From IMG/VR virus record IMGVR_UViG_3300025483_000018, positions 1 to 50,741 of that record: 50,741 bases of DNA; one strand, written 5' to 3'. Source of the DNA: a virus. The notes beneath the pieces were generated by a model. The model was given only the letters and a program-made list of their open reading frames with translations, made no database searches and had not been told where the DNA came from. Of the stretch, positions 8,501-31,204 are shown in pieces; position 1 is the stretch's first letter, and each line of letters begins with the position of its first letter. Both the position numbers and the translations under genes were made by a program.

Positions 8501-11500
8501 GTTACACTGAGTTGGATACAGTCAATGTCTCAGAAAAACTCAATGTCGTTGGTGTATCAACCTTTGGTTCTGATGTTGATATTAATGCCTCAGTTAACAT
8601 TAGTACCAATCTAGATGTTGATGGGTATACCGAACTTGATACCGTTAATGTATCTGAGAAACTCAATGTTGTAGGTGTCTCTACATTTGGTTCTGACTTA
8701 GATATCAATGCCTCAGTTAACATTAGTACCAATCTAGATGTTGTTGGTGATCTGGATGTTGATGGTTACACTGAACTTGACACTGTAAACGTTTCTGAGA
8801 AACTTAATGTCGTAGGTGTATCTACATTTGAATCTGATGTGGACATTAATGCCAATGTGGATATTAGTGGTGAACTAGTAGTTGATGGTACTTCTGATCT
8901 TGATCATCTTAATGTTGTTGGTCTTTCTACCTTTGCCTCTAATGTTGACATTAATGCTGACCTAGATGTTGATGGTTACACTGAGTTAGATACAGTCAAT
9001 GTATCTGAGAAACTTAATGTCGTAGGTGTATCAACCTTTGGTTCTGATGTTGATATTAATGCTTCAGTTAATATCAGTACTAATTTAGATGTTGATGGTT
9101 ACACTGAGTTAGATACAGTCAATGTATCTGAGAAACTTAATGTCGTAGGTGTATCAACCTTTGGTTCTGATTTAGATATCAATGCCTCAGTCAACATTAG
9201 TACCAATCTAGATGTTGATGGAGATACTGAACTTGATGGTCTAAATGTTGATGGAACCACTACACTTGATGGTACTACTATTGATGGCACACTTGTAGTT
9301 AATGGTGATATTGATTTAAGTGGTGACTTAGATGTTGATGGGTATACCGAACTTGATACCGTTAATGTCTCAGAAAAACTTAATGTCGTAGGTGTCTCTA
9401 CATTTGCTTCTGCAGTTGATATCAATTCTGACGTAGATATCAGTGGTGAACTGGTAGTTGATGGTACTTCTGATCTTGATCATCTTAATGTTGTTGGTCT
9501 TTCTACCTTTGCCTCTAATGTTGACATTAATGCTTCTGTTGATATTAGTGGTGAACTAGTAGTTGATGGTACTTCTGATCTTGATCATCTTAATGTCACC
9601 GGACTATCAACTTTTACTTCTAATGTTGACATTAATGCTTCTGTTGATATCAGTGGTGAACTGATTGTAGATGGCACTTCTGACCTAGATGAACTTAATG
9701 TTGTTGGACTATCTACTTTTACTTCTAATGTTGACATTAATGCTTCTGTTGATATTAGTGGTGAACTAGTAGTTGATGGTACTTCTGATCTTGATCATCT
9801 TAATGTTACTGGTATAGCAACAATCTCTGAACGTTTAGATGTTAATGGTGATCTTCATGATATATCTGGAACGATTTCTCTTGATAATGTAGATGTATCT
9901 GGTATTGTTTCTGCAACTAGATTTGATGGTGATCTTAACGCACTTGGTAATACTTACTATGTTGCTGCAACTGGTTCTGATTCAAACTCTGGTGATAATA
10001 TTAATGAACCATATCTAACAATTGCAAAGGCACTGACAGTTGCAACTAGTGGTGATATTGTTTATGTTGGTGCTGGTATATTTGAGGAGACTTGCCCACT
10101 TACGGTTCCTTCTGGTGTAACTATCAGGGGTGCTGGTCTAAGAGCAACCACAATTAGACCAACGGATGCAACGAAGACTAATAATATATTCTTACTAAGT
10201 GATGTCTCAACAGTTGAAGACTTTACGATCAAGGGTTCATACTATAATTCTACTGATGATACTGGTTATTCATTCTCATATGCATCTGGTATTACAATTG
10301 CAACTAGATCACCTTACATTCAGAGAGTTACCGTTCTCAACAGAGGTTCTGTAGTAACTTCTGATGACCCATATGGTTTTGATACTGCAGATTCACCACC
10401 AACAAGTTACACTGCTGGTCGTGGTGCTAAGGTTGATGGTTCTGTAATTACATCTAGTTCAATTGAAGCTGGTATGCTCTTTAATGAGGTAACCTTCTTT
10501 ACACCAAACCAGAAAGGTGTGATTCTTACGAATGGTGCTCGTGCTGAATATCTAAATTGTTTCCATTATTTTGCATCTCAGGCAATCTGTGGTGTTGCTG
10601 GTACAACTGGTATTGGTGGAAATGCAAACACAAAATTGAGGTTTAGTAATCCAAACGTAACACCATCTGCCAATGATATTGTCAAACTCTTCAATGGTGG
10701 TGGCGTTGGTATTGCAACAGGTCAGATTGTAACTTACTCCAGTGATTATGCCACTATCTCTGGATTGGGTACAGGAACATTTACATCAGTTGGTACTGGT
10801 ACCACTCAAGATATAAGATTCTTCCAAGCAGACGGAACAACTCAGACTGGTGTTGCAGATTCAATTCTTCTAGCAGACTACACCATGTTTGGTGCAGAGA
10901 TGCGTTCTGTTGGTTGTGCTGTTGAGTATGGTACTCAGGGTGTTGTTGCTGATGGTAATGGTGTCAAACTTAGAATGTTTGCTACTAATTTTAACCATGT
11001 TGGATCTGGTAAAGACTTCAGTAATGATACGACTCTTACCATTCAAGCAAATGAAGTTGTTGAACTGAACAGTGGAACAGTTTCTTATGTAAGTATTGAC
11101 CAAAGTGGTGACTTTAGAGTCGGTGATTCACTGTTTATTGATCAAGAGACTGGTAATGTAAGTTTTGCTGCTACATCTTACAGTCTTGATGTTACTGGTA
11201 CCATTGATGTTACTGATGGTACTGATACATCAACTTTAACACCAACATCAATAACAGTAGGTGGTCTTCAGTTAGCATCTAATCAACTATCTTCACTGTC
11301 TGGTGATATTACAATTGATCCTTCTGGATCTAGTAAGACAATTGTTCAGGGTAACCTTGATGTTAATGGTACACTGAATGCATCTGTTGTTAATATTGAT
11401 GCTATTCAGAGAGGTGATACATCAATCTCTATTGCAGATACTGGTACTGATGGAACTATTATTTTCTATACTGAAAATAATGAAGCATTTAGAGCAAATA

Positions 11501-12925: not shown

Positions 12926-15900
12926 TTGGCACAGCAGAACTTTAGAGTAAAGCGCGGACTAGAAGTTGGTCTTGGAGCAACCGTTCTATCCGCAACTTTC
13001 GACGGTAAGATAGGAATAAGACAGGCAAACCCAACTGCTGCTTTAGATGTAAATGGTAATACTGAACTAGATCATCTTAATGTTAGTGGTATCACTACAT
13101 TTAATGGAGATGTAAAACTATCTGGTGCTAGTACTGATCTGGATGTTAGTGGAACTATTAGAACACCAAATCTTCATAGTAATGGAACTTCATTAACAAT
13201 TCGTGGTGGTGGTAATACTTCAGGATTTCCAGAAATTTCACTACCAAATAGCACTAATGGTAGCATTAATATCCTAGGAAAAAGTGGTGCTTCTAATCAA
13301 ATTACTCTTGATACTAGAGGTTCTGGTAATTTACTGTTAAAACATAATACAGTTACAAAAGCAACAATTGATTCTAATGGTATTGATATTGTTGGAATTA
13401 CAGAGACTGATGATTTAAAGGTAACAGGTGTATCAACATTTACTAGTAATATTGATGCTACTCATATTAGTATTACTGGTGTAGGTACGTTTCCGACATT
13501 GGATACTACCAATGGAACGATTAATTATCTGACATCTATTAATACTGATATTTCAGGTATTGGTTCTATTACTACACTGCAGGCAACAACTGCTGCAATT
13601 GGTACTATTGATGTTACAACACTAACTGCTAATACATTATCTGGTGATCTAACAGGTGGTGTAACTGGTAATGTTACTGGTAATTCAGATACTGCAACTA
13701 CTTTACAAACTTCTAGAGATTTTTCTGTAAGTGGTGATGTTGCTACTGCATCTGCCATAAGTTTTGATGGGTCATCTGATGTAGATCTTGCAGTAACACT
13801 TTCAAGTACTTTCAGTGCCAATACTACAGGAAGTATACAAGCATCGGAATTTGGTACTGGGGCAGTAGGTTCTGCCATTAGAATTACTTCTAATACTATT
13901 TCTGGTCCTGCAACAATGACACTTGACCCTGCAGGGGTAGGTGATAATACAGGTAAGGTTGTTATTGCCGGTGACTTGCAGATTGATGGTACAACGACCA
14001 CGGTTAACTCAACCACTATCACAGTGGATGATAAAAACCTCGTTTTAGGTTCTGGTGCTGCTGATGATGCTGCTGCCAGTGGTGGTGGTATTACAATTGA
14101 ATCTGGTGATGGTAATAAGACATTTGAATGGATAGATTCTACAGATTCTTGGACATCTTCCGAGAATTTAGATATTAAAAATGGAAAAACTTATAAGATT
14201 AATGGTGTTGATATTTTATCAGCAACGATACTTGGATCTTCAGTTATTACTTCTTCTCTAACTTCTGTTGGAACTCTTGGTAGCCTTAATGTTACTGGAA
14301 ATGTAACTGCTGGTAGTTTTACTGGACCTCTTACTGGTAATGTAATAGGCGATGTAACAGGTAATGTAACAGGCAATCTTGTTGGTATTGCTGATGAAGC
14401 TGTAACGTTACAAAGTTCTAGAAATTTCAGTATAACTGGTGACGTAACCGCAGTTGCTGTGGGTTTTGATGGGTCATCTGCAGTAAATCTAAGTGCTTCG
14501 TTATCAAGTACTTTCAGTGCCAATACTACAGGAAGTATACAAGCATCTTCATTTACTAAAACTAGTGGTACTTCTTCTCAGTTTTTGAAAGCAGACGGAT
14601 CTTCAGATAATACAGCATATATTGACCTTGCAGATTTAAGTGTTACAAGTAATGCTGCTGGTACTGCTTCATTGTCTTATGACAATTCTACCGGTGCTTT
14701 TACATATACACCACCAGACCTTAGTTCATACATTGACCTTACAGATTTAAGTGTCACTAGTAATGCTGCTGGCACTGCTTCATTGTCTTATGACAATTCT
14801 ACAGGTGCCTTTACTTATACACCACCAGACCTTAGTTCTTATATCGACCTTACAGATCTTTCTGTTACAAGTAATGCTGCTGGTACTGCTTCATTATCTT
14901 ACAATAATTCTACTGGTGCTTTCACATATACTCCACCAGACCTTAGTTCTTATATCGACCTTACAGATCTTTCTGTTACAAGTAATGCTGCTGGTACTGC
15001 TGCACTGACCTATGATAATTCTACCGGTGCTTTTACTTATACACCACCAGACCTTAGTTCTTACATTGATCTTACAGATCTTTCTGTCACTAGTAATGCT
15101 GTTGGCACTGCTGCACTGACCTATGATAATTCTACCGGTGCTTTCACATATACACCACCAGACCTTAGTTCTTATATCGACCTTACAGATTTAAGTGTCA
15201 CTAGTAATGCTGCTGGTACTGCTTCATTATCTTACAATAATTCTACAGGTGCCTTTACTTATACACCACCAGACCTTAGTTCCTACATTGACCTTGCAGA
15301 TTTAAGTGTCACTAGTAATGCTGCTGGTACTGCTGCACTGACCTATGATAATTCTACCGGTGCTTTCACATATACTCCACCAGATCTTAGTTCTTACTTA
15401 ACATCATACACAGAGACAGACACTCTCGATAGTGTAACAGGTAGAACTAATGGAAATACAACTACCAATTCTATAATCGTTGGTGGTGATGGTAGTGCAA
15501 GTGGTATAACTCTTTCTGATGGTAAAATTGATATTAGAACGAGTACTGGTAATGTTGCTGCAATTGATTTCTATTGTGAATCTAGTAATGCACATTACAC
15601 TAGAATTCAATCAGCAGCTCATTCTGCGTATAGTGGCAATGCAACAGTAACACTTCCAAGTTCAACTGGTACACTCCTTCTTACTAATGGTGATGGTTCT
15701 AATCTAACGAATATTGTTACCACACTTACCGGTGGTACTGGTATTACTGTATCTGCTAGTACTGGATCAGTAACAATTAATGGATTGGAGTTATCAGATA
15801 TTTCTGTTGGGACACCATCAGCAGCATCTGGTTCTGGTTCTTTGTCTTATGACAATTCTACCGGTGCTTTTACATATACACCACCAGACCTTAGTTCTTA

Positions 15901-18610
15901 CTTAACAACATATACAGAGACACAAACATTAGATGATGTTTTAACTCTTGGGGCAACAACCTCACAAGATATTACATCAACAGGTAAGATACTATACTCT
16001 AATGTATACAGTGCAATTGTAGATCTACCAAGTGCATCAACATATCATGGTATGTTTGCTCATGTTCATGGCACTGGTAAAGGATACTTTGCTCATTCTG
16101 GAAATTGGATACAACTATTAGATGTAGGATCATCAATTGATAGTTTAACTGATGTAGATACCTCCACTGTTGCACCAACAGATGGACAGTCTCTTGTTTG
16201 GGATAGTACAACTAGTAAGTGGGAACCTGGTACAATTGCTGCATCAAGTACTGGTATTACCGTCAAGCAAGTTCAAGGTAGTGGTGGAACAGTAGACGTT
16301 ACTGCTACAAGCATCACTGAACTTCAGTTTGATAAAAATACTGGTTTCAATGTCACTGATCTAGGTAGTGGTGCTGCTTTTGTTGATTTTGGTAGTGCAT
16401 TTAAAACTTGGTATATTGATGGTCAGACTACTCTGGTTGCATCTGGTGAAGATGAGATTGAATTGATTGCAGGAACAAATATTCAACTTGCAACTACATT
16501 AACTCATACTGGATCTACAACTAAGGCAATCACTATTAGTGCATCTGGTGGTGGTGCAACTGCATTCACTGGTTTAAGTGATACCCCGGCATCTATGGGC
16601 ACAGCTGGTCAGTATCTTGCAGTAAACTCTGGTGGTACTGCACTTGAATTCGTTGCCGCACCTTCTGGTGGTGGAACATCTCTCACTGTTCAGACAAGAA
16701 ATGGATCTGCCGGTGCAGAAGGTGGTGAAGCTACTTCGATCTCAAAACTAACATTCAATAGTGCTTCTGGTTTCTCGGTATCTAATCCAAATACAGGTGA
16801 AGCATTTATTAGTTTGGGTTCTGCTTTTGCACCATGGTCTGTTGATGGACAAACAACTCTGACACCAGAAGGTGAAGAAGAAGTTGAATTTATTGCTGGT
16901 AGTGGTATCACTATTACTACAAACAATTCAGCAACACCAAAGTCTATAACATTTACTTCTTCTGGTGGTGGAGGTGGTGGTGGTGCTTCTTCCATAGATG
17001 ATCTTACTGACGTAGATACAACTACTACAGCACCATCTAGTGGTCAGGTTCTTAAGTGGAATGGTACTAATTGGATACCAGCAAGTGACTCTACCGGTTC
17101 TGGAGGAGGCGGTGGAGGTGGTGGAGATGGTACCGCATCCTTGGGTCAGAACAGTCGTCTAAGTTATGATGGTGGTCTATTAACACTGACAACATCGACT
17201 CAAATTAATGATGCTATTGATCAAATAAACGGGATCATGGTTAAGTTAGCACCACCAACACCACCACCACTGTCCACTAAAACTATGAGTATTAATGGTA
17301 CTTATTCTGCTATAAAATCTGGTACTCACGAACTTCTTTCTGTCGTTACTGATCAGTTAAGTCCTGAAACAAGTGTTGTTTCTAACTTCTATGATGGTGC
17401 TCAAGGTACATTATCATTTACAGTTAATAGTGTAGCTGATGGTTCGATTGCATTATCAGAAGGAGTTGGTACTGAGGGTAACACAGGAAGTGATGGTGGT
17501 TTGACGATTACCACAGATACTGATCCATATGCTGGTCAACAGGGTAAAGAATTCTTCTGGGAACAATTATCAGCAAAAGTTAAATCAACCAGTGATCTTA
17601 CTGCTGGTGAAACTCATAACTATACTATGAGTCATAGTATTACTGGTGATGCATCTCTTGATTTCTTTATCGATCAACTAAACACTGGGGCAAATCTTTC
17701 TGTTAGTGGGGAGTCGGTCGATACAACTCAAGCAACTACAGATAAGGGATTTATTAGTGGAGTACCTACATTTACTTACAACTCATATGTTGATGTAAGC
17801 TGCACTGTTAATGGCGCCGTTACCAAAGCTTATAACTCTACCAAGATTTGTGCCATGACTGGTAGTGTGGTTAGTACTAAAAATGTATCACCAGAAGCAG
17901 ATACTTATAGTGAAGGTGATGCAATAACAATCACTAATGAATCTGTTACTATTGGTAATAATAAGTTTAGTGATGGTGATTTTGATATTACTTTAAAGGG
18001 TTTTAACTCAAAAGGTGACGCAGGTAGTCCTACAACTCTTACTGTTCCTGGTAGAGTTGATACTAAATCAGATGAAACTTCACGAATAACTTCTGGTTCT
18101 GGTCAATATCCAACAACTGGATATGGGGATTCATATGATTCTACTCAATTACTCAGCGCTAATGAAGAACTTCAACTGATAAACGGAAAGTATGAATATC
18201 CTTCAACAGATTACAGTAGTAATGCATTAGTTGGTCCAGATTACTCATCTCTAACAGGAACAAGATGGGTGACATTTGCGCCTGGGACTGCAAGCTCTGC
18301 ATTGGATGGTGTAGTTACTATTAATGCTACTGGATTGACTGCAAATGCATTAAATGCTACCGTAACAGACGGTATAGATATGTACCTGAAAATTGAAGGT
18401 TCCACTGGATGGTTTAATATTAATGAGGGTCCTAACTATTCTTCTGGCACCCTGTCTGCTGATGGAGATAAACCTCTACTTTATGGTGGTTCAGATAAAA
18501 GTACAAAATCTTTAGCTTGGGGAACAGTTCCATTAAGTGGACAAGTATATGTTAGACTGGGATTGCCAGCGGGGTCTAATATTAAGATTACAGGTGTAAC
18601 TTTTAGTTAA
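12926..18610 (+). CDS. Tail fibre protein with 37-residue tandem repeats (1894 aa)
   Basis: The start is a TTG; an AGGGG ribosome-binding sequence at 12911-12915 and the N-terminus MAQQNFRVKRGLEVG, a typical opening for cyanophage tail-fibre proteins, support it. Near the N-terminus is an LDVNG.TELDHLNVSG segment like the repeats of the upstream fibre gene. A DPAGVGDNTG module follows at about residues 318-435. Seven tandem 37-residue repeats occupy residues 565-823 (core DLSVTSNA then TGAFTYTPPDLSS), with a diverged eighth copy near 15790-15900. The segment DSLTDVD..TVAPTDGQ.LVWD and its later copy are typical phage fibre motifs. Two glycine runs (near 16966-16986 and 17101-17127) look like flexible linkers before the C-terminal domain, which resembles the end of the first fibre gene in the window. 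It probably acts in host recognition; the receptor is unknown. Confidence 0.87.
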   Translation: MAQQNFRVKRGLEVGLGATVLSATFDGKIGIRQANPTAALDVNGNTELDHLNVSGITTFNGDVKLSGASTDLDVSGTIRTPNLHSNGTSLTIRGGGNTSGFPEISLPNSTNGSINILGKSGASNQITLDTRGSGNLLLKHNTVTKATIDSNGIDIVGITETDDLKVTGVSTFTSNIDATHISITGVGTFPTLDTTNGTINYLTSINTDISGIGSITTLQATTAAIGTIDVTTLTANTLSGDLTGGVTGNVTGNSDTATTLQTSRDFSVSGDVATASAISFDGSSDVDLAVTLSSTFSANTTGSIQASEFGTGAVGSAIRITSNTISGPATMTLDPAGVGDNTGKVVIAGDLQIDGTTTTVNSTTITVDDKNLVLGSGAADDAAASGGGITIESGDGNKTFEWIDSTDSWTSSENLDIKNGKTYKINGVDILSATILGSSVITSSLTSVGTLGSLNVTGNVTAGSFTGPLTGNVIGDVTGNVTGNLVGIADEAVTLQSSRNFSITGDVTAVAVGFDGSSAVNLSASLSSTFSANTTGSIQASSFTKTSGTSSQFLKADGSSDNTAYIDLADLSVTSNAAGTASLSYDNSTGAFTYTPPDLSSYIDLTDLSVTSNAAGTASLSYDNSTGAFTYTPPDLSSYIDLTDLSVTSNAAGTASLSYNNSTGAFTYTPPDLSSYIDLTDLSVTSNAAGTAALTYDNSTGAFTYTPPDLSSYIDLTDLSVTSNAVGTAALTYDNSTGAFTYTPPDLSSYIDLTDLSVTSNAAGTASLSYNNSTGAFTYTPPDLSSYIDLADLSVTSNAAGTAALTYDNSTGAFTYTPPDLSSYLTSYTETDTLDSVTGRTNGNTTTNSIIVGGDGSASGITLSDGKIDIRTSTGNVAAIDFYCESSNAHYTRIQSAAHSAYSGNATVTLPSSTGTLLLTNGDGSNLTNIVTTLTGGTGITVSASTGSVTINGLELSDISVGTPSAASGSGSLSYDNSTGAFTYTPPDLSSYLTTYTETQTLDDVLTLGATTSQDITSTGKILYSNVYSAIVDLPSASTYHGMFAHVHGTGKGYFAHSGNWIQLLDVGSSIDSLTDVDTSTVAPTDGQSLVWDSTTSKWEPGTIAASSTGITVKQVQGSGGTVDVTATSITELQFDKNTGFNVTDLGSGAAFVDFGSAFKTWYIDGQTTLVASGEDEIELIAGTNIQLATTLTHTGSTTKAITISASGGGATAFTGLSDTPASMGTAGQYLAVNSGGTALEFVAAPSGGGTSLTVQTRNGSAGAEGGEATSISKLTFNSASGFSVSNPNTGEAFISLGSAFAPWSVDGQTTLTPEGEEEVEFIAGSGITITTNNSATPKSITFTSSGGGGGGGASSIDDLTDVDTTTTAPSSGQVLKWNGTNWIPASDSTGSGGGGGGGGDGTASLGQNSRLSYDGGLLTLTTSTQINDAIDQINGIMVKLAPPTPPPLSTKTMSINGTYSAIKSGTHELLSVVTDQLSPETSVVSNFYDGAQGTLSFTVNSVADGSIALSEGVGTEGNTGSDGGLTITTDTDPYAGQQGKEFFWEQLSAKVKSTSDLTAGETHNYTMSHSITGDASLDFFIDQLNTGANLSVSGESVDTTQATTDKGFISGVPTFTYNSYVDVSCTVNGAVTKAYNSTKICAMTGSVVSTKNVSPEADTYSEGDAITITNESVTIGNNKFSDGDFDITLKGFNSKGDAGSPTTLTVPGRVDTKSDETSRITSGSGQYPTTGYGDSYDSTQLLSANEELQLINGKYEYPSTDYSSNALVGPDYSSLTGTRWVTFAPGTASSALDGVVTINATGLTANALNATVTDGIDMYLKIEGSTGWFNINEGPNYSSGTLSADGDKPLLYGGSDKSTKSLAWGTVPLSGQVYVRLGLPAGSNIKITGVTFS
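14618..15394 (+). repeat. Seven 111-nt coding tandem repeats
   Basis: Seven consecutive units of exactly 37 codons, each running from YIDL(T/A)DLSV to PPDLSS. Amino-acid variation is confined to a few positions (S/A, D/N, A/V, S/T), and the variants SLSYDN, SLSYNN and ALTYDN occur in shuffled order. An eighth, shorter and diverged copy follows at about 15790-15900. Confidence 0.92.
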
Positions 18611-19874: not shown

Positions 19875-22535
19875 ATGGCTTTAGATTTTCCCGAAGGCGT
19901 TGGACCTGGTCATCTATATTATGATGCCACTAGTGGTAATATATACCAACTTGAAATAGGTGACTATTGGAGATTGCTGCCCAAACCATCTGCTCAAGGA
20001 GTTCAGGGATTTTCTGGTGGTGAGGTTGGGGCAACTGGTGACCAAGGTATTACAGGTATTCAAGGTCCTGATTCTGAGCAAGGTCTTCAAGGTATTACAG
20101 GTAAACCAGGACCTAATGCTCCACCTGAATTAATTACTCAAGGTAATCAAGGTTATCAAGGTTTTCAAGGTATTCAAGGTATTCAAGGTCCTCAAGGTAT
20201 TCAGGGACAAGCATCTGAATTAGGTGATATTGGTGTTCAAGGTGAAGATGGACCTCAAGGTACTAGTGGTTCTCCTGGACCTGTAGGAGAACTTGGGACC
20301 TTTAGTACACAAGGTGATCAAGGAACTCAAGGATTTCAGGGTCATAGAGGTGAACAAGGTTTTCAAGGTGTTCAGGGACAAGCAACTGAATTAGGTGATA
20401 AAGGTTCTCAAGGTCCCGATTCTGAACAAGGTCTTCAAGGTTTTCAAGGTCCTCTTGGTGATCAAGGAGAAGCATTACAACTAGGTTCTCAAGGTATTCA
20501 AGGTAATATTTCTGATCCTGGACCTGTAGGACATCTCGGTTATACTGGGGTGGGATATGACTTAGGTCCTGAAGGTAACCAAGGTCCTGAAGGTCATCAA
20601 GGACTTGCTGGTTATGAACTTAATCAAGGGATACAGGGAAATTCAATACAACGGGGAGATATTGGCATTCAAGGTACTCAAGGTTTTCAAGGTGAAGGTG
20701 GACCTCAAGGACCTGCAGGAACTGCAAATGATGTTGGATCTCAGGGTATAGATGCCGATCAAGGTATTCAAGGTTCATTGGGTTTTACGGGTGAACAAGG
20801 TACTACAGGAACTGCATCGGCCGGTGGTGATCAAGGTATCCAAGGTTTTCAGGGTAATAGAAGTTACAGTGGACGAAGAGGTCTTGCTGGTGGATTTAAT
20901 GTAGTTGGTGATCAAGGAACACAAGGATTTCAGGGTCGTCAAGGTGGAGAAGGTCCGTTAGGTGATACTGGTTTAGATGGTCTTTTTACTGATCAAGGTA
21001 CTCAAGGAGTTCTAGGGAATCAGTCTATTCAAGGTAACCAAGGTATTCAGGGGCCTTTGGGGACAGTTAATGAGCCAGGTGATAAAGGTGTACAAGCTAT
21101 TCAAGGTAAGTATGGTCTTAAGGGTAAACGTGGTATAGATGGTTATCCTGGTGGTGCTGATGAAGATGGTGACCAAGGTCCTGAAGGTGAACAAGGTCGT
21201 CAAGGTTTTCAAGGTAATATTGGTCCTTATGGTAATGTAGATTCTCAAGGTACTCAAGGTTTTACGGGTGAACAAGGTACTTTAGGAAAATTAGGAAAAT
21301 CTGGTTCTTCCGGTGCTCCAGGACCTGCACAAAACATAGGTTATCAAGGTTATCAAGGTTTTCAGGGTTATCAGGGTGATCAAGGTGTTCAAGGATTCGG
21401 TGGTAGTGCTGATGAAGATGGTGACCAAGGTGTTCAAGGTCGTCAAGCTTCTCAAGGGATAACCGGTCCTAAAGGTTATCTTGGTCCTGCTGGTGGTGCT
21501 GATGAAGATGGTTTTCCGGGTGAACAAGGTACACAAGGTATTCAAGGTTCAACTTTAAGTCGAGGAGTCCGAGGTGGGTCTGGTACTGCTACGCTGCAGG
21601 GTCCCCGTGGTATTCAAGGTACTCAAGGTTTTGCAGGGGGAAAAGGTGATAGAGGTGATAGAGGAAATGATGGGTATGCTAACAATCCTGGACAGCAAGG
21701 AGTACAAGGACCGATAGGTGATACTGGTAGAAATGGTATTTCTGGAGGTACTTATAAGTTCATACATAAAGAACATCTTTCTTGGACTAATAATACAAAG
21801 AGATCTCCACTCTCTGGAGAGATGGGATTATATACCGAATATACTGTGGGTGATATGTATAGAGTATGGCAACTTAAATTTTCTAGATTTGATCGTAATG
21901 GGAAAGATATTGGTAAAATATTTGACCTAGTAGGTTCTCCTACTGCTACCTTTTATGCATATACCAAAGCTTTGCACATGAAGCTTTCCTTCGCTGATTA
22001 TAGTAATACGTTAGAATCTGACCACGAGGGGTCGCATCAATTCATGGTTTATAGGGCACCGGTATATGATGCTGGAGATGATTCATATTTACTTATTCTT
22101 AATCAACAGGGTGATAATACTGCCTTCAATGCTAGATATTGGTATGGATCCTCAAGTGGAATGGACTTCCCTTCTATTAATGATGAAGTATATGTAGAAT
22201 TATTTTTTCATGGAGATCGAGGTCCATCTGGATATTCAACAAATCCTGGTGGTCAAGGTTATCAAGGTTTTCAAGGTCAAAGGGGTTATCAGGGATCTGT
22301 CGGTACTGTAAGTACTCAAGGATCCCTTGGATCTCAAGGTATTCAAGGTCATCGAGGTGCTCAGGGTTATCAAGGTTATCAAGGTTATCAAGGTGGACAA
22401 GGTATTGCTGCAAACCAAGGATTTCAAGGAGTTCAAGGTGTTTTGGGATCTTCAACACGTAATGTTTTTGTTTCTACATATGATCCAGATCCCACTACAG
22501 TTGATCCTGGTGCTTTATGGTTTAAAATACCGTAA
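19875..22535 (+). CDS. Collagen-like fibre protein A (Gly-X-Gln repeats, 886 aa)
   Basis: A short N-terminal domain (MALDFPEGVGPGHLYYD... YWRLLPKP, about 40 residues) is followed by a long Gly-X-Y array in which Y is most often Gln (GIQGFQG type). The array is broken at regular intervals by triplets lacking Gly (for example SEL, STQ, TEL, LQL, YDL); from 20133 to 21752 the spacing alternates 9 and 10 triplets. Nine additional single-Gly losses occur between these regular breaks. A globular insertion of about 160 residues (21753-22220) ends in INDEVYVELF, followed by a second Gly-X-Y arm and a short C-terminal tail ending TVDPGALWFKIP. Bacterial and phage collagen-like proteins form trimeric fibres; a tail or head fibre role is inferred. 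The start is set by GGGG at 19860-19863 and the next in-frame ATG. It is paralogous to the following gene. Confidence 0.85.
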   Translation: MALDFPEGVGPGHLYYDATSGNIYQLEIGDYWRLLPKPSAQGVQGFSGGEVGATGDQGITGIQGPDSEQGLQGITGKPGPNAPPELITQGNQGYQGFQGIQGIQGPQGIQGQASELGDIGVQGEDGPQGTSGSPGPVGELGTFSTQGDQGTQGFQGHRGEQGFQGVQGQATELGDKGSQGPDSEQGLQGFQGPLGDQGEALQLGSQGIQGNISDPGPVGHLGYTGVGYDLGPEGNQGPEGHQGLAGYELNQGIQGNSIQRGDIGIQGTQGFQGEGGPQGPAGTANDVGSQGIDADQGIQGSLGFTGEQGTTGTASAGGDQGIQGFQGNRSYSGRRGLAGGFNVVGDQGTQGFQGRQGGEGPLGDTGLDGLFTDQGTQGVLGNQSIQGNQGIQGPLGTVNEPGDKGVQAIQGKYGLKGKRGIDGYPGGADEDGDQGPEGEQGRQGFQGNIGPYGNVDSQGTQGFTGEQGTLGKLGKSGSSGAPGPAQNIGYQGYQGFQGYQGDQGVQGFGGSADEDGDQGVQGRQASQGITGPKGYLGPAGGADEDGFPGEQGTQGIQGSTLSRGVRGGSGTATLQGPRGIQGTQGFAGGKGDRGDRGNDGYANNPGQQGVQGPIGDTGRNGISGGTYKFIHKEHLSWTNNTKRSPLSGEMGLYTEYTVGDMYRVWQLKFSRFDRNGKDIGKIFDLVGSPTATFYAYTKALHMKLSFADYSNTLESDHEGSHQFMVYRAPVYDAGDDSYLLILNQQGDNTAFNARYWYGSSSGMDFPSINDEVYVELFFHGDRGPSGYSTNPGGQGYQGFQGQRGYQGSVGTVSTQGSLGSQGIQGHRGAQGYQGYQGYQGGQGIAANQGFQGVQGVLGSSTRNVFVSTYDPDPTTVDPGALWFKIP
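20133..21752 (+). repeat. Collagen-like array with 9/10-triplet interruption ladder (protein A)
   Basis: Reading in triplets from ITQ at 20133, glycine-less triplets fall after 9,10,9,10,9,10,9,10,9,10,9,10,9,10,9,10,10,10 triplets, the last being NNP at 21681; eight triplets later the globular insertion begins at 21753. The arithmetic (180 triplets, 1620 bases) closes exactly on the sequence. Nine further single-Gly substitutions lie inside the intervals. Confidence 0.85.
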
Positions 22536-22552
22536 TAATTTTTTTGTATTCA

Positions 22553-22560
22553 GATAAATA
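22553..22560 (+). promoter_or_regulatory. T4-late-type promoter box (GATAAATA)
   Basis: GATAAATA sits in the 47-base gap between the two collagen-like genes, 22 bases before the second ATG, with an AAGGAT ribosome-binding sequence at 22567-22572 between them. The second gene could therefore be transcribed separately as well as from upstream. Confidence 0.5.
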
Positions 22561-22582
22561 ATCTTTAAGGATAAAAAATAAA

Positions 22583-25183
22583 ATGCCAATAGAATTTCCA
22601 GGAGGTCCAAATGACCCAACACTACAGATAGGTGATGAACATTCCGTTTTGGGTGGTAGAACCTGGGTATGGAATGGTACTTACTGGAAAAGAAAACCAG
22701 ATCCTGGTCCTCAAGGTGTTCAAGGACCAGACACTGGTCCTCAAGGTATAAGGGGTTATCAGGGGTTGCAGGGTGACCAAGGAACTCAAGGTTTTCAAGG
22801 TGAACAGGGACTTCAAGGTGACCAAGGAATTTCTGCTAGTGATCTCGCTGCTCAAGGATATAGAGGTGAACAAGGTACTCAAGGTATACAAGGTGAAATT
22901 GGTGAACAAGGTATAAGTGGTGAAGATGTAGATAAAGGTTTACAGGGTGACCAAGGAACTCAAGGTTTTCAAGGTATTCAAGGTGAACGAGGTGAACAAG
23001 GTGAAGATGGATCTGAAGTAGGTAAAGGAAGTCAGGGTACTCAAGGATCTCAAGGTATACAAGGTGAAATTGGTGAACAAGGTATAAGTGGTGAAGATGT
23101 AGATAAAGGTTTACAGGGTGACCAAGGAACTCAAGGTATACAAGGTATACAAGGTGAAATTGGTGAACAGGGTATAAGTGGTTCTCAAGTTGGACAGGGG
23201 AGTCAGGGTACTCAAGGACCTCAAGGTCCGCTTGGTCCTCAAGGATTTCAGGGTGTATCTGGTGCTAATGTTGCTCAAGGTATAAAAGGTTCAACGGGAG
23301 ACCGCGGTCCTTCTGGATTTACAGGACCTCAAGGACCTCAAGGAATATCTGGATATGAAGTAGGACAAGGTTTTGCCGGTCCCCAAGGTCCTCAAGGTCT
23401 TCAGGGTGGTTATGGTCCTAGAGGTGTATCTGGTGAAGATGTTAGTCAGGGAAGTCAAGGTTCTCAAGGCACACGAGGTGAACAAGGTACGCAAGGTGGA
23501 ATCGGTCTACAGGGTATAAGTGGTAGTGACGTTGCCAAAGGTTCTCAAGGTTCTCAAGGTCCTCAAGGTGTTCAAGGTGTTCAAGGTCAACAAGGTATTC
23601 AAGGTTATGAAGTTGGAAAAGGTAGTCAGGGTGCCAGTGGATCTCAAGGTACACGAGGTGAATTAGGTCCTCAAGGTATTCAAGGTACTGATGGTGCTCA
23701 AATTGGTCAAGGTATTCAAGGTCCTCAAGGTATTCAAGGTATTCAAGGTGTAATTGGTCTACAGGGTATAAGTGGTGGTGATGTATCTAAAGGTTTTCAG
23801 GGTGACCAAGGTATTCAAGGTTTTCAGGGGTTGCAGGGTGACCAAGGAACTCAAGGAGTCAGTGGTGCTAACGTTACTAAAGGTGCTCAAGGAAATGCTG
23901 GATATCAGGGAATAAGAGGCAATAGAGGTTTTCAAGGCGAAAGTGGTGCTTATGCTTTTCAGGGTATTCAAGGATTAATTGGTCCTCAAGGTATTGATGG
24001 TAACCAAGGACCTCAAGGACCTCAAGGTATTGATGGTTCTGAAGTTGCTAGAGGTTTTCAGGGTTATCAGGGTGATCAAGGTACTAAAGGTATACTGGGT
24101 GACAGAGGTATAACAGGGCAAACAGTATCTAAGGGTGATCAAGGTATTCAAGGTATTCAGGGAATTATTGGATATCAGGGATCTATCGGTGAACAAGGTA
24201 TAAGTGGTGGTAATATCGCTAGAGGTGACCAAGGTATACAAGGTGAACAAGGTATTCAAGGACCTAGAGGTCTTCAAGGTTATCAAGGAGTTGATGGTTC
24301 AAATACTAATTATGGTGGTCAAGGTTTTGGTGGTGCTACCGGTGCAACTGGAATTGAGGGTGACCAAGGACCTCAAGGAGTAAGTGGCGCTATTATCGGT
24401 GCTGGAGACCAAGGTGAACCTGGTGGCCAGGGTGTTCAAGGCACACGAGGTATTACTGGCAATACTGGTCTGCTATTCGTGTACAAAGGTGAAAATACCG
24501 CAACCAATCCAACTCCTCAGGCTGCCTCAAACGCTTATATGCAGATTGAATTTGACACTGGTAGTGGTAGCCTAGATGATCTTAAAAAGATTTGGATTAG
24601 TAGATATCACAACGGTGCATATATTAATAATTACTTACAATCATGGGATAAAAGTGGATCTACTGGAAATAGGGGTATTATCACTATTACTAAAACTGAT
24701 TATAGTGCTCAGATTATGGTACAATTGGTTAGTTCATCCAACTCCACCTTCAATGGTTATACACCCATGACTGTTGATGGGTCTCCTTTCCATACATCAA
24801 GTGATTCAAATCCATTTACTCTTAATGATGAGGTCTTTATAAACTTTATTCCTAGTGGAGTACAGGGTATTGATGGTGCCTTGACATCTCTTGGCCAACA
24901 AGGTATTCGAGGTTTAACGGGTTTTCAAGGTCATACAGGTGAAAGTGGGGAAAGTTTTGGTCAAGGTTCTCAAGGTTTCGATGGTGACAGAGGTTTTCAG
25001 GGTCATACTGGTACACGAGGTGAATTAGGTCCTCAAGGTATTAGTGGTCAAAATACCGACTATGGTGGTCAAGGTATCCAAGGTATTCAGGGCCCCAATG
25101 CATATGAAATTACTACATCCACAGTAGATCCAGGAGTAAACGATGGTGCTGTGGGTGATATTTGGATTAAATACACTCCATAA
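22583..25183 (+). CDS. Collagen-like fibre protein B (Gly-X-Gln repeats, 866 aa)
   Basis: Layout parallels the preceding gene: an N-terminal domain of about 40 residues (MPIEFPGGPNDPTLQIGD... WVWNGTYWKRKP), a long Gly-X-Y array with Gln at Y, a globular insertion of about 130 residues (about 24470-24860, ending LNDEVFINF), a second Gly-X-Y arm and a C-terminal tail ending GAVGDIWIKYTP. Regular glycine-less triplets are mostly V-x-x (VDK, VGK, VAQ, VSQ, VTK, IGQ) preceded by a GISGED- or GVSGAN-like pair. Their spacing alternates 9 and 10 triplets, exactly as in the preceding protein, with no other interruptions inside that stretch. Stretches of 87 bases are exactly repeated 171 bases apart, so duplication of the superperiod is recent in places. 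A trimeric fibre is likely; whether it pairs with protein A is untested. Confidence 0.85.
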   Translation: MPIEFPGGPNDPTLQIGDEHSVLGGRTWVWNGTYWKRKPDPGPQGVQGPDTGPQGIRGYQGLQGDQGTQGFQGEQGLQGDQGISASDLAAQGYRGEQGTQGIQGEIGEQGISGEDVDKGLQGDQGTQGFQGIQGERGEQGEDGSEVGKGSQGTQGSQGIQGEIGEQGISGEDVDKGLQGDQGTQGIQGIQGEIGEQGISGSQVGQGSQGTQGPQGPLGPQGFQGVSGANVAQGIKGSTGDRGPSGFTGPQGPQGISGYEVGQGFAGPQGPQGLQGGYGPRGVSGEDVSQGSQGSQGTRGEQGTQGGIGLQGISGSDVAKGSQGSQGPQGVQGVQGQQGIQGYEVGKGSQGASGSQGTRGELGPQGIQGTDGAQIGQGIQGPQGIQGIQGVIGLQGISGGDVSKGFQGDQGIQGFQGLQGDQGTQGVSGANVTKGAQGNAGYQGIRGNRGFQGESGAYAFQGIQGLIGPQGIDGNQGPQGPQGIDGSEVARGFQGYQGDQGTKGILGDRGITGQTVSKGDQGIQGIQGIIGYQGSIGEQGISGGNIARGDQGIQGEQGIQGPRGLQGYQGVDGSNTNYGGQGFGGATGATGIEGDQGPQGVSGAIIGAGDQGEPGGQGVQGTRGITGNTGLLFVYKGENTATNPTPQAASNAYMQIEFDTGSGSLDDLKKIWISRYHNGAYINNYLQSWDKSGSTGNRGIITITKTDYSAQIMVQLVSSSNSTFNGYTPMTVDGSPFHTSSDSNPFTLNDEVFINFIPSGVQGIDGALTSLGQQGIRGLTGFQGHTGESGESFGQGSQGFDGDRGFQGHTGTRGELGPQGISGQNTDYGGQGIQGIQGPNAYEITTSTVDPGVNDGAVGDIWIKYTP
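22847..24394 (+). repeat. Collagen-like array with 9/10-triplet interruption ladder (protein B)
   Basis: From AAQ at 22847 the glycine-less triplets fall after 9,10 repeated eight times, then 10 and 10, reaching IGA at 24395. The arithmetic (172 triplets, 1548 bases) closes exactly. The superperiod is 19 triplets (171 bases). Unlike protein A, no additional Gly losses were found between ladder positions. Confidence 0.9.
22880..23137 (+). repeat. 171-nt period duplication with 87 identical bases
   Basis: Bases 22880-22966 recur identically at 23051-23137, an offset of 171 bases, equal to one 19-triplet superperiod of the collagen-like array. This is the clearest nucleotide trace of superperiod duplication in the gene. 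Confidence 0.9.
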
Positions 25184-25208: not shown

Positions 25209-28200
25209 ATGGCTATCTATTATGTTGATCTTGAAAATGGCAACGATGCCAACAATGGGCAGTCTTTTGCTGATAGAAAGTTAACCATCCCAAATGTTTC
25301 TCAGTTTGATGAAGTTCGAGTTATGGCTTCTGCGGATGCATATGCTATAGGGAATGCAACTTGGACTTCACAAGAAGTTACTTCTAAGGAGTTTGTAGTA
25401 AACGTAAGTGATGATAATGGTGAGATTAAAATTTATATTAGTCCAAATACTTTGGCATATTATCAAGATGATGGTTATGTGCAGATTGCTAATAGTTATA
25501 TTGGTGCCCTTAATGGTCGTTGGCAGACTACAAGTTTAGGTAATGGATATTACAAATTAAAAAACTCATCTTTTTCTAGTCTCGGTGTTAGTTCTGGAAC
25601 TGGAGTCAATCCAACAACTATACAGCAAATTAGTGGTAGATTAGTTATATTTTCTGGTGAACAAGTAAAAAGTATTACACCATCTTGGTCAGCTGCGTCA
25701 GTAACCAATGTAGTAACTGCGTATGTAAATGTTGGTGGTTGTTTTGATGCAGCAACTAATGGTGGAGTATTAGTTCCCGGTTCGACTGATTTTGTATCAA
25801 GACCACAAAGTACATGGAGGATTAAATGGAGTAGCAATACTGCGGTTACTGTAGAGGAGAGGACATATTTTGATCCTAGAACTGTGATATCAAGTTGGTC
25901 TAACTCATATAATTCCAACTATGGATCAGATAATTATGGTAGAAGCATATACACGGGGTATTGGCAGAGACATTACTTTGGTTCTTATACTGGATATTAT
26001 CTAGTCGTCAACTCAAACTCGTTCATTAACATAGGACACTATTCTACTACTAATTACCCAAATTTAACGAATCCTTCCGCTAGGAATTATAAAATAGGTG
26101 CTAGAAATAGTGAAATGTATCGTTTAAGGTACAAAGTAGTCAACTCCAAGGATCACACGGCTTATAGTGATGTTGACGAATATACGAGCACAACCAGTAC
26201 TTATAATAATGGTTACTTAATTTGGTATATTGGAAACAGACAAGATGCTGGTAGTGTCTCATCATATCAAGGTGATTCTTCAACAAATGCTCATGACCTT
26301 GAATGGACTGCTTACTTTTATGGGAGAGTTGGTAGTAACAATATGATTCAGGTTGATATTCACACTAATACTGATTTTGAATTGCAAACTATTGTACCAG
26401 GTGTAGTTTCTGTAGGGAGTGCTTCTGGATCTGGATCTGGGTCACAGTTTAATACAGGTGGAACAGAAGCAAATACTACTGTTTTTTGGGAAAATTTTAC
26501 AAGTTCTATTGATTTAAGTTCTTATGATTCATTATCATTAATGATGAAGAGAACTGGAACTGTTCCTGATAATTTTAAACTTAGATTGCATGAAGGTGCT
26601 TATGACAGTGGTGCATCATACGTAGAAGTAGCATTGCCCATAGGAACTTTGTCTAGTGAATGGGTACCAGTTGCTATAGATTTTGGAGCAAATTTATCTT
26701 CTAATATACAAGCAATCTCTATTCATTATGATGGTTCAAGTGATAATACTAGCATAGGATCATTTTACATTTCAGATCTGACCGCTGTTAGTTCAACGGG
26801 TCTTAATCTTTCTACTTATATTGGAAGAAATACTACAGATTCTCCACATTGGTACAGAATAGAATCAATTGATTTTGATGGATACAATACTTTTGTATCT
26901 ATTAAAGGTTCTAATGACCAAATAGCAGGTGATAATAATCAATTAGCATATTATGGTAGTGGTACTACTCCTCCAAATCTTCGAGATAATGCTTCTGTTG
27001 TTACTGATACTGTAACAACTTATGGTAGATCACCAATAACACTTGGTAATTCGGGTATAACATTAAATACGAATCGAGTATCTGTAAGGGGTGGATGGAA
27101 TAGAACTGATATGTCCACTCAAACTAGCGATACTTGGATTAATATGAATGCTACTGAAGGCACGGTTTTTAATATTAGCAACGTTCAAGGATCGTATTAT
27201 TCAAATTTCCATGCCACTGGTGGTGGAACAGGTTTTTATATCACTGGTTGTAAGGGCATTGAGTTGGAAAATTGTAGTGCATCATATTGTAACGATGTTG
27301 GTTTTCTTCCAATCAGTTCAGATGCGTGGAAGTTAAAAATAATATCTTCTCTTGCTAATGGTCAATCAGTTACGTGTAATAACACTAACGGAGGTGAAAT
27401 TTATGGGGGTATTCATGATGGCAATACGAAAGGTATTTCAAGAGCACAGAATAAAATTTCGGATATTAATACTTTTGATGTTGTTATAAGAGGATGTCGA
27501 GATGATGCAATGTACTATGATATGGCTAAATCATGTAGAGATTATAACCCAACAATCACATCTTGTAGTCATAACATATATGATGTGAAAGAATCTACTG
27601 ATATTTTAGTTCACGGTGGGTTAATAAGACCTTCTAGAACAAGACAATCTTCAACCTACCATTATTACAATTCTGAGGACTCTGAGGTATACTTCCTTGG
27701 AACTAATATTGCAGATCTTACTATAACTACCAATCAAAGTGGTGTTGTTAGTATGGAATCTACTCTGTATGTAGATGGACCTTGTGAAGAAATATCTAAT
27801 GCAAATAGAACAAGGATACTGTGGCCTCCACACACATCGTTAGTAAAAGATCCAGACACAAAAGCCTTTACTCTTCCAGATGGAAGTACAGATCCTGGTA
27901 ATGTCTGTTGGAAATGGGAACGGCATCAATCATATGATTATACTGGTTGGAAGATTAGACAAAATTCTCCAAGAATAAAACTTGGAGAAATACCAGTATC
28001 AAGTGGTACTACAATTACGGTTAGTGCTGATGTGTATCGATCTTCACCGAGTTATGGAAGATTGCAAGTTTTTTGTGATTGGATGGAATCTTCCATCGGT
28101 ATTACTGAAGATGTTGAGGATGATTTTTATGGACCGGTAAGCCAGTGGAATAATGTATCTTTTAATGTTACTGCAGTTACTACTGGTGTAGCGGTTATAT

Positions 28201-28286
28201 ATATGGTATACTTTACTGATGTTGCCAACACAATCGGTAATCAAACGAGAGTTTTATATACTAACTTAGAGATTACAACTGCTTAA
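25209..28286 (+). CDS. Beta-helix adhesin/tailspike-like protein (1025 aa), paralog 1
   Basis: Begins MAIYYVDLENGNDANNG(Q)SFADRK, the opening strand of DUF1565/pectate-lyase-like right-handed beta-helix proteins. A middle region (about 250-540) resembles a carbohydrate-binding jelly-roll, and near residues 627-640 a GGWNRTDMST motif opens a Gly- and Asn-rich beta-helix with repeated short strands (residues 640-850). The last about 120 residues form a separate beta-sandwich-like domain (GEIPVSSGTTITVSADVYRSS and later strands), possibly carbohydrate-binding. The same order is seen in the 28553 gene, so the two are paralogs. No catalytic residues could be assigned, so depolymerase activity is only a possibility. 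It lies 25 bases after the collagen-like genes in the same direction. Confidence 0.8.
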   Translation: MAIYYVDLENGNDANNGQSFADRKLTIPNVSQFDEVRVMASADAYAIGNATWTSQEVTSKEFVVNVSDDNGEIKIYISPNTLAYYQDDGYVQIANSYIGALNGRWQTTSLGNGYYKLKNSSFSSLGVSSGTGVNPTTIQQISGRLVIFSGEQVKSITPSWSAASVTNVVTAYVNVGGCFDAATNGGVLVPGSTDFVSRPQSTWRIKWSSNTAVTVEERTYFDPRTVISSWSNSYNSNYGSDNYGRSIYTGYWQRHYFGSYTGYYLVVNSNSFINIGHYSTTNYPNLTNPSARNYKIGARNSEMYRLRYKVVNSKDHTAYSDVDEYTSTTSTYNNGYLIWYIGNRQDAGSVSSYQGDSSTNAHDLEWTAYFYGRVGSNNMIQVDIHTNTDFELQTIVPGVVSVGSASGSGSGSQFNTGGTEANTTVFWENFTSSIDLSSYDSLSLMMKRTGTVPDNFKLRLHEGAYDSGASYVEVALPIGTLSSEWVPVAIDFGANLSSNIQAISIHYDGSSDNTSIGSFYISDLTAVSSTGLNLSTYIGRNTTDSPHWYRIESIDFDGYNTFVSIKGSNDQIAGDNNQLAYYGSGTTPPNLRDNASVVTDTVTTYGRSPITLGNSGITLNTNRVSVRGGWNRTDMSTQTSDTWINMNATEGTVFNISNVQGSYYSNFHATGGGTGFYITGCKGIELENCSASYCNDVGFLPISSDAWKLKIISSLANGQSVTCNNTNGGEIYGGIHDGNTKGISRAQNKISDINTFDVVIRGCRDDAMYYDMAKSCRDYNPTITSCSHNIYDVKESTDILVHGGLIRPSRTRQSSTYHYYNSEDSEVYFLGTNIADLTITTNQSGVVSMESTLYVDGPCEEISNANRTRILWPPHTSLVKDPDTKAFTLPDGSTDPGNVCWKWERHQSYDYTGWKIRQNSPRIKLGEIPVSSGTTITVSADVYRSSPSYGRLQVFCDWMESSIGITEDVEDDFYGPVSQWNNVSFNVTAVTTGVAVIYMVYFTDVANTIGNQTRVLYTNLEITTA

Positions 28287-28552: not shown

Positions 28553-31204
28553 ATGGCAATTTTCTATGTTGATCCAGTTGATGGTGACGATTCTAATACT
28601 GGATTAAGTTTTGCTGATCGTAAAAGATCTGTTAAAAGTGCTTCTAACACAGGTGGATCTAATACTGAAATTAGAGTTATCAAAACACCAAATACACTAT
28701 TATCTGGGGATTCTACTTGGGTTAGTAAAATTAATCACGTTCCACTATATCTTTCTTATCTTAACGGACAAACTTCAAGTCCTGACCCTCCTGGTTGGAG
28801 GGTGTATTGTGCCAACCATAATCTTTCGGAGGGTGATTTAATATTTACTAATGGCCTTGCTGAGGGACGTTTAAATGGTTGGTGGAAAATATCAGTTATA
28901 GATTCTAATTTTTTTGTTATACCTCACTTGGGGACCGTTACCACCACTGGCACGAGTGGTAATAGATATCTTTGGAAACAGCAGAATCAATTAATTACAC
29001 TTGATACACCTAAAGTTAAAAATTTAATTAATTGTGTCACTGGAGCAGAATCTGGTACTCATATAACTCCTGGTTTTGTTACCAATCAAAGCACAAATAC
29101 AAGCATTTACAATTATACAACAACTGGACTAAATTTTGATAGTGTTACTCAGGCATGGATAACACAATTCTACTGGAGTAATAGTTTTACTACTGGATTA
29201 GTTTCTTATCATGCTTTCACTAATTCGATGGATCTGACTGGTTATAGACAAATTTCATTTCATCTCAGGCAAAGTGCAGGCAATACTACCACCCCCAATA
29301 CTTGGAAAATATCATTATGTAGTGATGCAAATGGAGCGGTCCCAGTTTATGATTTTTTAGTTCCTGCTCAGGGGGGTACTAATTATTGGAGATCTATTAC
29401 TATAGATTGTAGCAATTTACCTGCTGGTCAAACAATGACTACTCCGATAAATTCTATCGCATTTTATGTCGTTACTGACTACGGATATCACACATTTCGT
29501 ATACAAAATATAATTGCATGTAAAGGTCCAGATGATCCCGAGTGTGTGAATCATGATAGTCTTGTGTCAACAAAAAGATCGGGTGATATATGGTGGCCGG
29601 TTTACTTTGCAGATGAAGAAATGGGTTTAATTATTGGTTCTCGAACTTTGGAATCTGGCCTCGGTGGAGGAAATAATCAAGCCCCGTTTTGTTCTGGGTA
29701 TGTAAGTCCTTCTTATGCTTCTTTAGTGCATTGGAATTTTAGAACTAATGACTCTGTAGGTTTACTCACAGAAAATAATTTACCTTGTTATGTTGTAAAT
29801 GCTCCTAATACTCATATGGCTGCACTTGGATATGATAAGTTTCCAGCCAGCAGCGGTGATTCGCAAGGTGAGCAAGTGCAGCATAACAATACGAGTGTAA
29901 TTGGTGGATGGAATAGAACTGATATGTCTACACTGGACGATGTTACTGATATTGGTACCATAAGTTGGTTTAGAGTTGGATGTAATTATACTGGTAGAGC
30001 ATTTATGCTTCAATATCGAGATGACTGTACTGTTTCAAATATTGGAGTCTTTGGTGGTTATAATGGGATGTATATTAATCAGTCCCAGAGAAATACTCTT
30101 AATAATATACATTTTGCCAATAATTATTATGGAATTTATAACTACTCTAGTAATGCTTCGATTTTTAATGGTCTTACAGGAACATCGGACCTCTATGCAA
30201 TTTATATAAACAATTCTGGAGCTTTAAGAATGAAAGATGTTACTGTTCTTAGTACGGCCAATGCTTTGCGTTTGGTGGGCTCATATCACACATCTGTAGA
30301 TGGATTTACAAGTAAAAATCTTAGAAGTACTAGCATTTCTCTCGACTATTGGACAGGTCATTCCAAATTTAATAATATTTCTAGCTATGGTGATAGGTAT
30401 ACGATACGAAATCAATTTAATTCGAATCATATGATCTTTAGAAATGTAACTGCAACTGCCGTAGGGGATTTTTCAAGTAGATATATGACGGACTCTCAGT
30501 CAACTATATTTCACGATCAAAAATATAAAGATATATCTGTGGTAGGTACAGGTGTTCCTCATTCTGTGCTTAGACCTACCACTTATGGTGGTGGTGATTC
30601 TGTGACCCTGGACAGCAGTGCAGTTTATTATGCTACTAGTTATGTTGGTAAGAATGACCCATATATACACTGGCAAAACTCTGATGGTACATGGGTTTCA
30701 GCCAGTGGTTCTGTATTTATTCAAAAGGGAGTAGGATATGGTTCTGGAGGTCAAAGTTTAAGTATTTCTCTGGCAGCTTTTGATTATTATGCATACGACT
30801 CTAGTGTACTACCTACATCTCAAAATGGTTTTGTTGCAGTGTCTGATCAAGCAAATGGATTATTCTCCAGAGGTATTGGTAATAAAGTAGTACTAGCAGA
30901 AGTTGCAGTTATTGCTAACCAGGTAGTAACTTTTACTGTTCAGGCTAAGAGGTATTCATACCAAACAGGATTAGAACACATTCAAGCAAATCTTTATGTT
31001 CCACCTACTCTTGGAAACCCTATAGTTAGAAGTCCTATGATGACTACAAGAGATGTATGGGAAGAAATGAGTGTAGATGTAACTCCAATTAGGAGTGGTA
31101 TTATGGTCTTTTCAATGGAAGTATTTCAATACTATGGTAATACTAACAATCAACATGCCAGACGTATTGACGTGGATAATATAGTTTGTACACAGGGGAA
31201 TTAA
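28553..31204 (+). CDS. Beta-helix adhesin/tailspike-like protein (883 aa), paralog 2
   Basis: Begins MAIFYVDPVDGDDSNTGLSFADRK, matching the start of the 25209 gene. A jelly-roll-like region (about 200-330) is followed by the shared GGWNRTDMST motif near residues 451-460 and a beta-helix of short strands rich in Asn, Gly and Tyr (about 470-680). The C-terminal about 200 residues carry a beta-sandwich-like domain with strands such as VVLAEVAVIANQVVTFTVQA. The two paralogs share architecture but differ strongly in the middle, as expected for diversifying receptor-binding proteins. No catalytic motif could be identified. The stop is one base from the next start. Confidence 0.8.
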   Translation: MAIFYVDPVDGDDSNTGLSFADRKRSVKSASNTGGSNTEIRVIKTPNTLLSGDSTWVSKINHVPLYLSYLNGQTSSPDPPGWRVYCANHNLSEGDLIFTNGLAEGRLNGWWKISVIDSNFFVIPHLGTVTTTGTSGNRYLWKQQNQLITLDTPKVKNLINCVTGAESGTHITPGFVTNQSTNTSIYNYTTTGLNFDSVTQAWITQFYWSNSFTTGLVSYHAFTNSMDLTGYRQISFHLRQSAGNTTTPNTWKISLCSDANGAVPVYDFLVPAQGGTNYWRSITIDCSNLPAGQTMTTPINSIAFYVVTDYGYHTFRIQNIIACKGPDDPECVNHDSLVSTKRSGDIWWPVYFADEEMGLIIGSRTLESGLGGGNNQAPFCSGYVSPSYASLVHWNFRTNDSVGLLTENNLPCYVVNAPNTHMAALGYDKFPASSGDSQGEQVQHNNTSVIGGWNRTDMSTLDDVTDIGTISWFRVGCNYTGRAFMLQYRDDCTVSNIGVFGGYNGMYINQSQRNTLNNIHFANNYYGIYNYSSNASIFNGLTGTSDLYAIYINNSGALRMKDVTVLSTANALRLVGSYHTSVDGFTSKNLRSTSISLDYWTGHSKFNNISSYGDRYTIRNQFNSNHMIFRNVTATAVGDFSSRYMTDSQSTIFHDQKYKDISVVGTGVPHSVLRPTTYGGGDSVTLDSSAVYYATSYVGKNDPYIHWQNSDGTWVSASGSVFIQKGVGYGSGGQSLSISLAAFDYYAYDSSVLPTSQNGFVAVSDQANGLFSRGIGNKVVLAEVAVIANQVVTFTVQAKRYSYQTGLEHIQANLYVPPTLGNPIVRSPMMTTRDVWEEMSVDVTPIRSGIMVFSMEVFQYYGNTNNQHARRIDVDNIVCTQGN

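Follow-up and report, generated by a model that had tools for sequence, protein, structure and literature searches.

A shared ladder of glycine-less triplets in two adjacent collagen-like proteins of a T4-like marine cyanophage

Results

Two neighboring collagen-like proteins, A and B, interrupt their Gly-X-Y repeat at identical places. Counted in triplets from nucleotide 20133 in A and from 22847 in B, the 19 glycine-less triplets of this ladder stand in both proteins at indices 0, 9, 19, 28, 38, 47, 57, 66, 76, 85, 95, 104, 114, 123, 133, 142, 152, 162 and 172. An earlier note, made from the letters alone, had described this series as intervals of 9 and 10 repeated eight times and then 10,10, and our independent count reproduced every number, including the exact closure on 1548 bases in each protein, with the last ladder triplets at 21681 in A and 24395 in B. 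The break at index 0 is the end of a non-collagen spacer of 7-8 residues (APPELITQ in A, ASDLAAQ in B). Protein B has no further break within its ladder (22847-24403, + strand). Protein A (ladder at 20133-21689, + strand) has, as previously counted, exactly nine extra ones at indices 32, 42, 54, 69, 81, 99, 107, 146 and 158 (nucleotides 20421, 20511, 20619, 20754, 20862, 21024, 21096, 21447 and 21555), spread over 20421-21563 on the + strand.

The window, by which we mean the whole 50.7 kb stretch analyzed, is a linear IMG/VR virus record (IMGVR_UViG_3300025483_000018). Its T4-like cyanophage genes include phoH, td and gp32 along with baseplate and tail-tube genes. With a phoH-thymidylate synthase-gp59-gp32 block 82% identical to that of S-SKS1, a Synechococcus phage (Llyrvirus), and with genes for a T4-like baseplate and tail tube further downstream, the virus is by gene content a T4-like marine cyanophage. 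In a profile comparison, A, B and the gene upstream matched tail-fiber PHROGs, and A and B lie in the tail-fiber locus of this tailed phage. The same region holds other repetitive or paired genes. A 2445-aa ORF (5551-12888) in the cyanophage fiber locus matches LRR_5 (BspA-type, E=4e-19) and is weakly similar to bactofilin; a 1894-aa fiber ORF (12926-18610) contains a 111-bp (37 aa) repeat in seven copies at 14621-15397 (87% matches), upstream of which two 234-bp copies (94%) lie at 12022-12483. Immediately downstream of A and B is a second paralogue pair (25209-28286 and 28553-31204; BLASTP E=2e-9), whose N-termini both read MAI(Y/F)YVD..G(N/D)D.N.G.SFADRK and which share a GGWNRTDMST motif; the product of 28553-31204 has a weak NosD beta-helix match, and the pair could possibly be two tailspikes for two shafts.

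The genes of A (19875-22535, 886 aa) and B (22583-25183, 866 aa) adjoin on the + strand with 47 bp between them, and both products belong to Pfam Collagen (PF01391) with E=4.5e-63 and 209 bits for A and E=3.6e-81 and 267 bits for B, against a cut-off of 27.2. They have the same architecture of N-terminal part, globular insert and C-terminal collagen arm. The insert of A (21741-22211, +) ends in INDEVYVEL and that of B (24464-24856, +) in LNDEVFINF; both are predicted to be all-beta at low confidence, the models having pLDDT values of 35-49, too low to use, and the insert analysis gave a weak profile match to PDB Lmo1102 (E=0.01). In the arms (22212-22466 in A and 24857-25108 in B, both +), the break intervals of 3, 8, 11 and 4 that the note had listed after the insert were equal in the two proteins on recount. 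Pro occupies 11-12% of X positions and 0-3% of Y positions.

The alignable non-collagen domains make A and B paralogues, the products of an ancient tandem duplication: identity is 31% across the C-terminal part including the arm and 22% over the inserts, which differ in length and have an NDEV motif in common. Within the ladder, in-register identity reaches 12% for X and 30% for Y, compared with 8% and 27% after shuffling, and the in-register match stands out from other triplet shifts by a z of only about 1.3. There is nevertheless no net indel between A and B over 516 residues. What the two ladders have in common is the break spacing and the pattern relative to the breaks, not the ordinary residues.

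All 19 ladder positions of B fall among the 28 breaks that A has in 173 triplets (hypergeometric 7e-19), a value that is no test of independence, A and B being homologous; the ladder of A was therefore also tested alone, with the extra breaks included. Over periods of 4-20 triplets, the best comb for A had a period of 9.5 triplets at phase 0 and z=8.7, while the maxima were 5.5 among 1000 random and 5.9 among 1000 interval-shuffled break sets, so that the pattern exceeds chance even with every additional Gly loss counted, the outcome on which the earlier note had made its claim depend. Eight intervals of 9 and ten of 10 can be ordered in 43,758 ways, and the observed order alternates strictly until the 10,10 tail. 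Except for the last two, the ladder positions equal floor(9.5k), which resembles an integer spacing following a half-integer period.

The ladder breaks carry motifs of their own. In A, the pattern is G-x-[AVF]-[mostly polar]-x-x-G in 16 of 18 breaks; A, V or F stands directly before the glycine-less triplet in these 16, never at the nine extra breaks (Fisher p=1.2e-5), and at the same site in 7 of 118 ordinary triplets (p=1e-13). At the extra breaks, S, A or L takes the Gly place of an ordinary-looking triplet, and six of the nine triplets end in Q; the motif thus separates ladder breaks from extras within one protein. In B, the typical break is G-[IV]-S-G-x-[DEN]-[VI]-x-[KQR]-G, with V or I in the Gly position in 16/18 breaks, D, E or N before it in 13/18, and K, Q or R two residues after it in 16/18. 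Relative to B, the hydrophobic residue of the break is shifted by one position toward the N-terminus in A. The note's statement that position, not residues, is conserved accordingly stands between A and B and does not hold within each protein, where the ladder breaks share a motif.

The units from break to break are polar in both proteins, with the Gln-rich part first: the Gln fraction at Y falls from 0.70 in the first half of the unit to 0.22 in the second in A, and from 0.74 to 0.40 in B (0/5000 permutations). Similarity between A and B is 0.407 at shifts that make the ladders coincide and 0.324 otherwise. Both proteins have an autocorrelation peak at a lag of 19 triplets, and B contains one recent tandem repeat of 171 bp (57 aa, two units; 22871-23227, +, 89% matches). 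A preserved 57-aa repeat was considered as the cause of the 9/10 alternation and ruled out by a parity test, in which 9-units and 10-units were as similar to each other as units within a class (for A, difference -0.0002, p=0.47; for B, 0.007, p=0.32), so that no still-recognizable two-unit repeat accounts for the alternation. The additional triplet of the 10-units fits best in mid-unit.

Comparison with other collagen-like proteins

No second ladder like that of A and B was found in IMG/VR, in 84,980 genomes of bacteria and archaea, or among the cyanophages examined; its carriers in these searches are two proteins of one genome only. The ladder-pattern scan of the bacterial and archaeal genomes did return matches, none of which is a collagen ladder; many are mycobacterial and probably belong to Gly-rich proteins of the PE-PGRS type. 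No orthologous locus turned up when the B break motif, the inserts or the neighboring proteins were used for scanning, in a set of records that may lack the closest neighbors of the window's own; tblastn against phages gave no match for whole B and generic collagen matches only for whole A, and blastn of the ladders gave just short collagen-repeat matches. PHROG 3420, which is colinear with the N-terminal half of A, was followed up and set aside, as it leads to mostly uninterrupted cyanophage collagens. In the cyanophage collagens examined (P-SSM2, P-SSM5, S-CRM01, DSL-LC02 and S-SCSM2R), the tracts are mostly long and uninterrupted, and they included no comparable pair of paralogues; S-SKS1 gave no collagen match.

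A homology-free scan of IMG/VR for the pattern break-8G-break-9G-break returned 39 contigs. Most of the matches rich in breaks are Ser/Thr-rich and collagen-like, and in them glycine-less triplets (xTS, ALS) recur in phase every 7-10 triplets. This viral group (L194, L196, L200, L204, L215, L217-L219, L224-L228; mostly 1100-4100 aa) has the break motif GxS-xTS-G or GxS-ALS-G. Near-constant in-phase spacing and a recurring motif place A and B with it among regularly interrupted phage collagens, and some members have a T4-like context: at least one contig, L200, encodes a protein that on visual inspection is PhoH-like, a sign of a T4-like phage. However, the group differs from A and B in its variable spacing (modes mostly 7, 8, 9 or 10, and a longest 9/10 alternation of 4 versus 16 in A/B), in having almost no Pro and in being mostly far longer. 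Compared by eye, its N-terminus (MAQVRFLDQVPVGV...) and composition, including GTSGTSG tracts, are different enough that no homology to A and B was found, and the likeness is one of architecture only.

More widely, A and B share with phage fiber collagens (PF01391; PHROGs 5073, 6320, 819, 366 and 1806) the Gly-X-Y repeat, globular modules, the tail-fiber locus and frequent Gln at Y, whereas the examined members of those PHROGs have long unbroken tracts or irregular breaks and no strict ladder. One phage collagen-like protein (L119, 4767-6966) has GAASTVTG interruptions recurring at irregular spacing. In E. coli O157:H7 prophages, the EPclA/B side-tail proteins are likewise phage-derived collagen shafts between globular domains (PMC3368898); they are trimeric by experiment, and the Col domains described have at most one conserved interruption and vary in length by multiples of three (PMC3368898). 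Animal collagens such as MBL (GQG) and C1q also have Gly-X-Y breaks, which bend or destabilize, but these are one or a few and phase-changing, unlike the 18 in-phase breaks at near-constant spacing in A and B (PMC9898670).

As a control for how tract length evolves, we compared phage collagen-like proteins with alignable flanks. Where the flanks are about 100% identical, the tracts still differ in length by a whole number of triplets (53/69/85/101; 38/47; 75/82), and equal tract lengths occur in no listed pair with a flank identity under 92.7%; the control is imperfect in that its tracts are more repetitive (mostly perfect repeats, where slippage is easier), its pairs non-independent and its proteins mosaic. 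Among these are orthologues (L046, L053, L054, L056, L062 and L075) with identical flanks and one long tract of 53, 69, 85 or 101 triplets, whose length evolves in whole 48-residue units (16-triplet steps).

Discussion

From the ladder identity, the motifs, the unit polarity, the near-saturation at X and Y, the want of net indels and the equal similarity of units across parity, all computed here, we infer that A and B may be duplicated tandem fiber shafts, each homotrimeric, in which selection rather than inertia has kept a break ladder from before the duplication as register marks or joints. We give this reading about an even chance of being correct. Each protein would probably form its own homotrimeric triple helix, and the shaft would be segmented, a glycine-less triplet with a protein-specific motif closing each polar, Gln-rich-first unit of 9 or 10 triplets (9.5 on average, or about 8.2 nm). 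With the value of about 0.29 nm per residue used for a side-tail collagen of phage origin that was found to be trimeric (PMC3368898), 516 residues give about 150 nm. If selection held the ladder while the X and Y residues turned over, both shafts would keep the same length of ~516 residues (~150 nm) and the same joint positions; the defined fiber length proposed in the earlier note would fit this equal ladder length. Interruptions destabilize, bend and expose triple helices (PMC9898670; PMC10191275). The breaks most likely would act as register marks, locking three chains against slip in a degenerate GxQ repeat, and as joints, splitting the rod into short helical segments. Aligned hydrophobic breaks would penalize chain slippage, and with unequal adjacent intervals a slip by one unit would mismatch half of the breaks; these two properties favor register marks that double as joints, the two homotrimeric shafts being alike in geometry. 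The note's suggestion that the interruptions are structural and conserved in position is borne out insofar as the ladder outlasts near-saturated X/Y divergence, with break-specific motifs, polar units and no net indel in 516 residues.

The case for selection is made from X/Y saturation and from a control mostly of perfect-repeat tracts and mosaic proteins. Neutral inheritance has to be weighed against it. A two-unit repeat (57 aa, 171 bp) may have been amplified before the duplication, the ladder persisting simply as non-repetitive collagen rarely gains or loses triplets. The 171-bp repeat at 22871-23227 in B and the autocorrelation maximum at 19 triplets in both proteins are what such a history would leave; yet outside 22871-23227 no memory of two units is seen, same-parity and cross-parity similarity being equal while the alternation is perfect in both proteins. 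The break motifs have also been kept, and in A they tell ladder from incidental breaks, and in other phage collagens the length of the tract shifts rapidly. We regard neutral inheritance as possible but doubtful. Coincidence or a counting artefact might be suspected in low-complexity collagen-like repeats with the frequent breaks of A, but it is refuted by the hypergeometric value together with the comb score of A alone, and retains practically no probability.

Other readings concern what the ladder would do. The earlier note had also suggested an A/B heterotrimer in which a common ladder holds the chains in register, and break indices identical across 516 residues in two genes adjoining on one strand, 47 bp apart, are in keeping with it. 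In such an assembly, however, nine breaks of A would lie opposite intact Gly triplets of B, the hydrophobic break residues would be offset by one position, and the inserts, as candidate trimerization domains, are 22% identical and of unequal length; we mildly disfavor the heterotrimer and think it rather improbable. Alternatively, one break might mark each superhelical turn of an imino-poor triple helix, the motif recurring on one face and the 9,10 spacing approximating 9.5 much as coiled coils use a 3-4 spacing. Low-imino sequences approach a 10/3 helix with a true repeat of 8.58 nm (PMC3933592), to which 28.5 residues (about 8.2 nm) come near; the best period in A alone is 9.5, and A and B are low in imino residues (Pro as given above for X and Y). 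Against this, the modal interval of interrupted phage collagens lacking imino residues is 7 or 8 in some and 10 in others, comparators without Pro favoring 8 triplets, so that a turn per break is no general rule; the ladder ends in 10,10, the C-terminal arm includes intervals of 8 and 11, and the break triplets may themselves alter the twist. We consider this reading quite improbable. A more far-reaching proposal takes the 9/10 alternation as the triple-helix counterpart of 3-4 heptad spacing, a physical period of 9.5 triplets that selection holds in two diverged shafts, so that register or face along 150 nm of rod would be set by where the breaks lie and not by which residues occur; it strikes us as unlikely.

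That two long-diverged proteins keep their interruptions in 19 identical places, spaced by about 8 nm, suggests that the spacing of breaks along a collagen rod can be conserved in its own right. The role of interruptions in collagens has usually been approached single break by single break. A and B form a natural pair whose 18 break intervals did not change as the ordinary triplets were replaced, and in which break motifs can be separated from incidental Gly losses within one protein. The wider set of quasi-regularly interrupted viral collagens supplies comparators with other spacings, and the ladder of A and B is a ready design for variants with breaks shifted, removed or regularized, with which register, stability and stiffness could be gauged.
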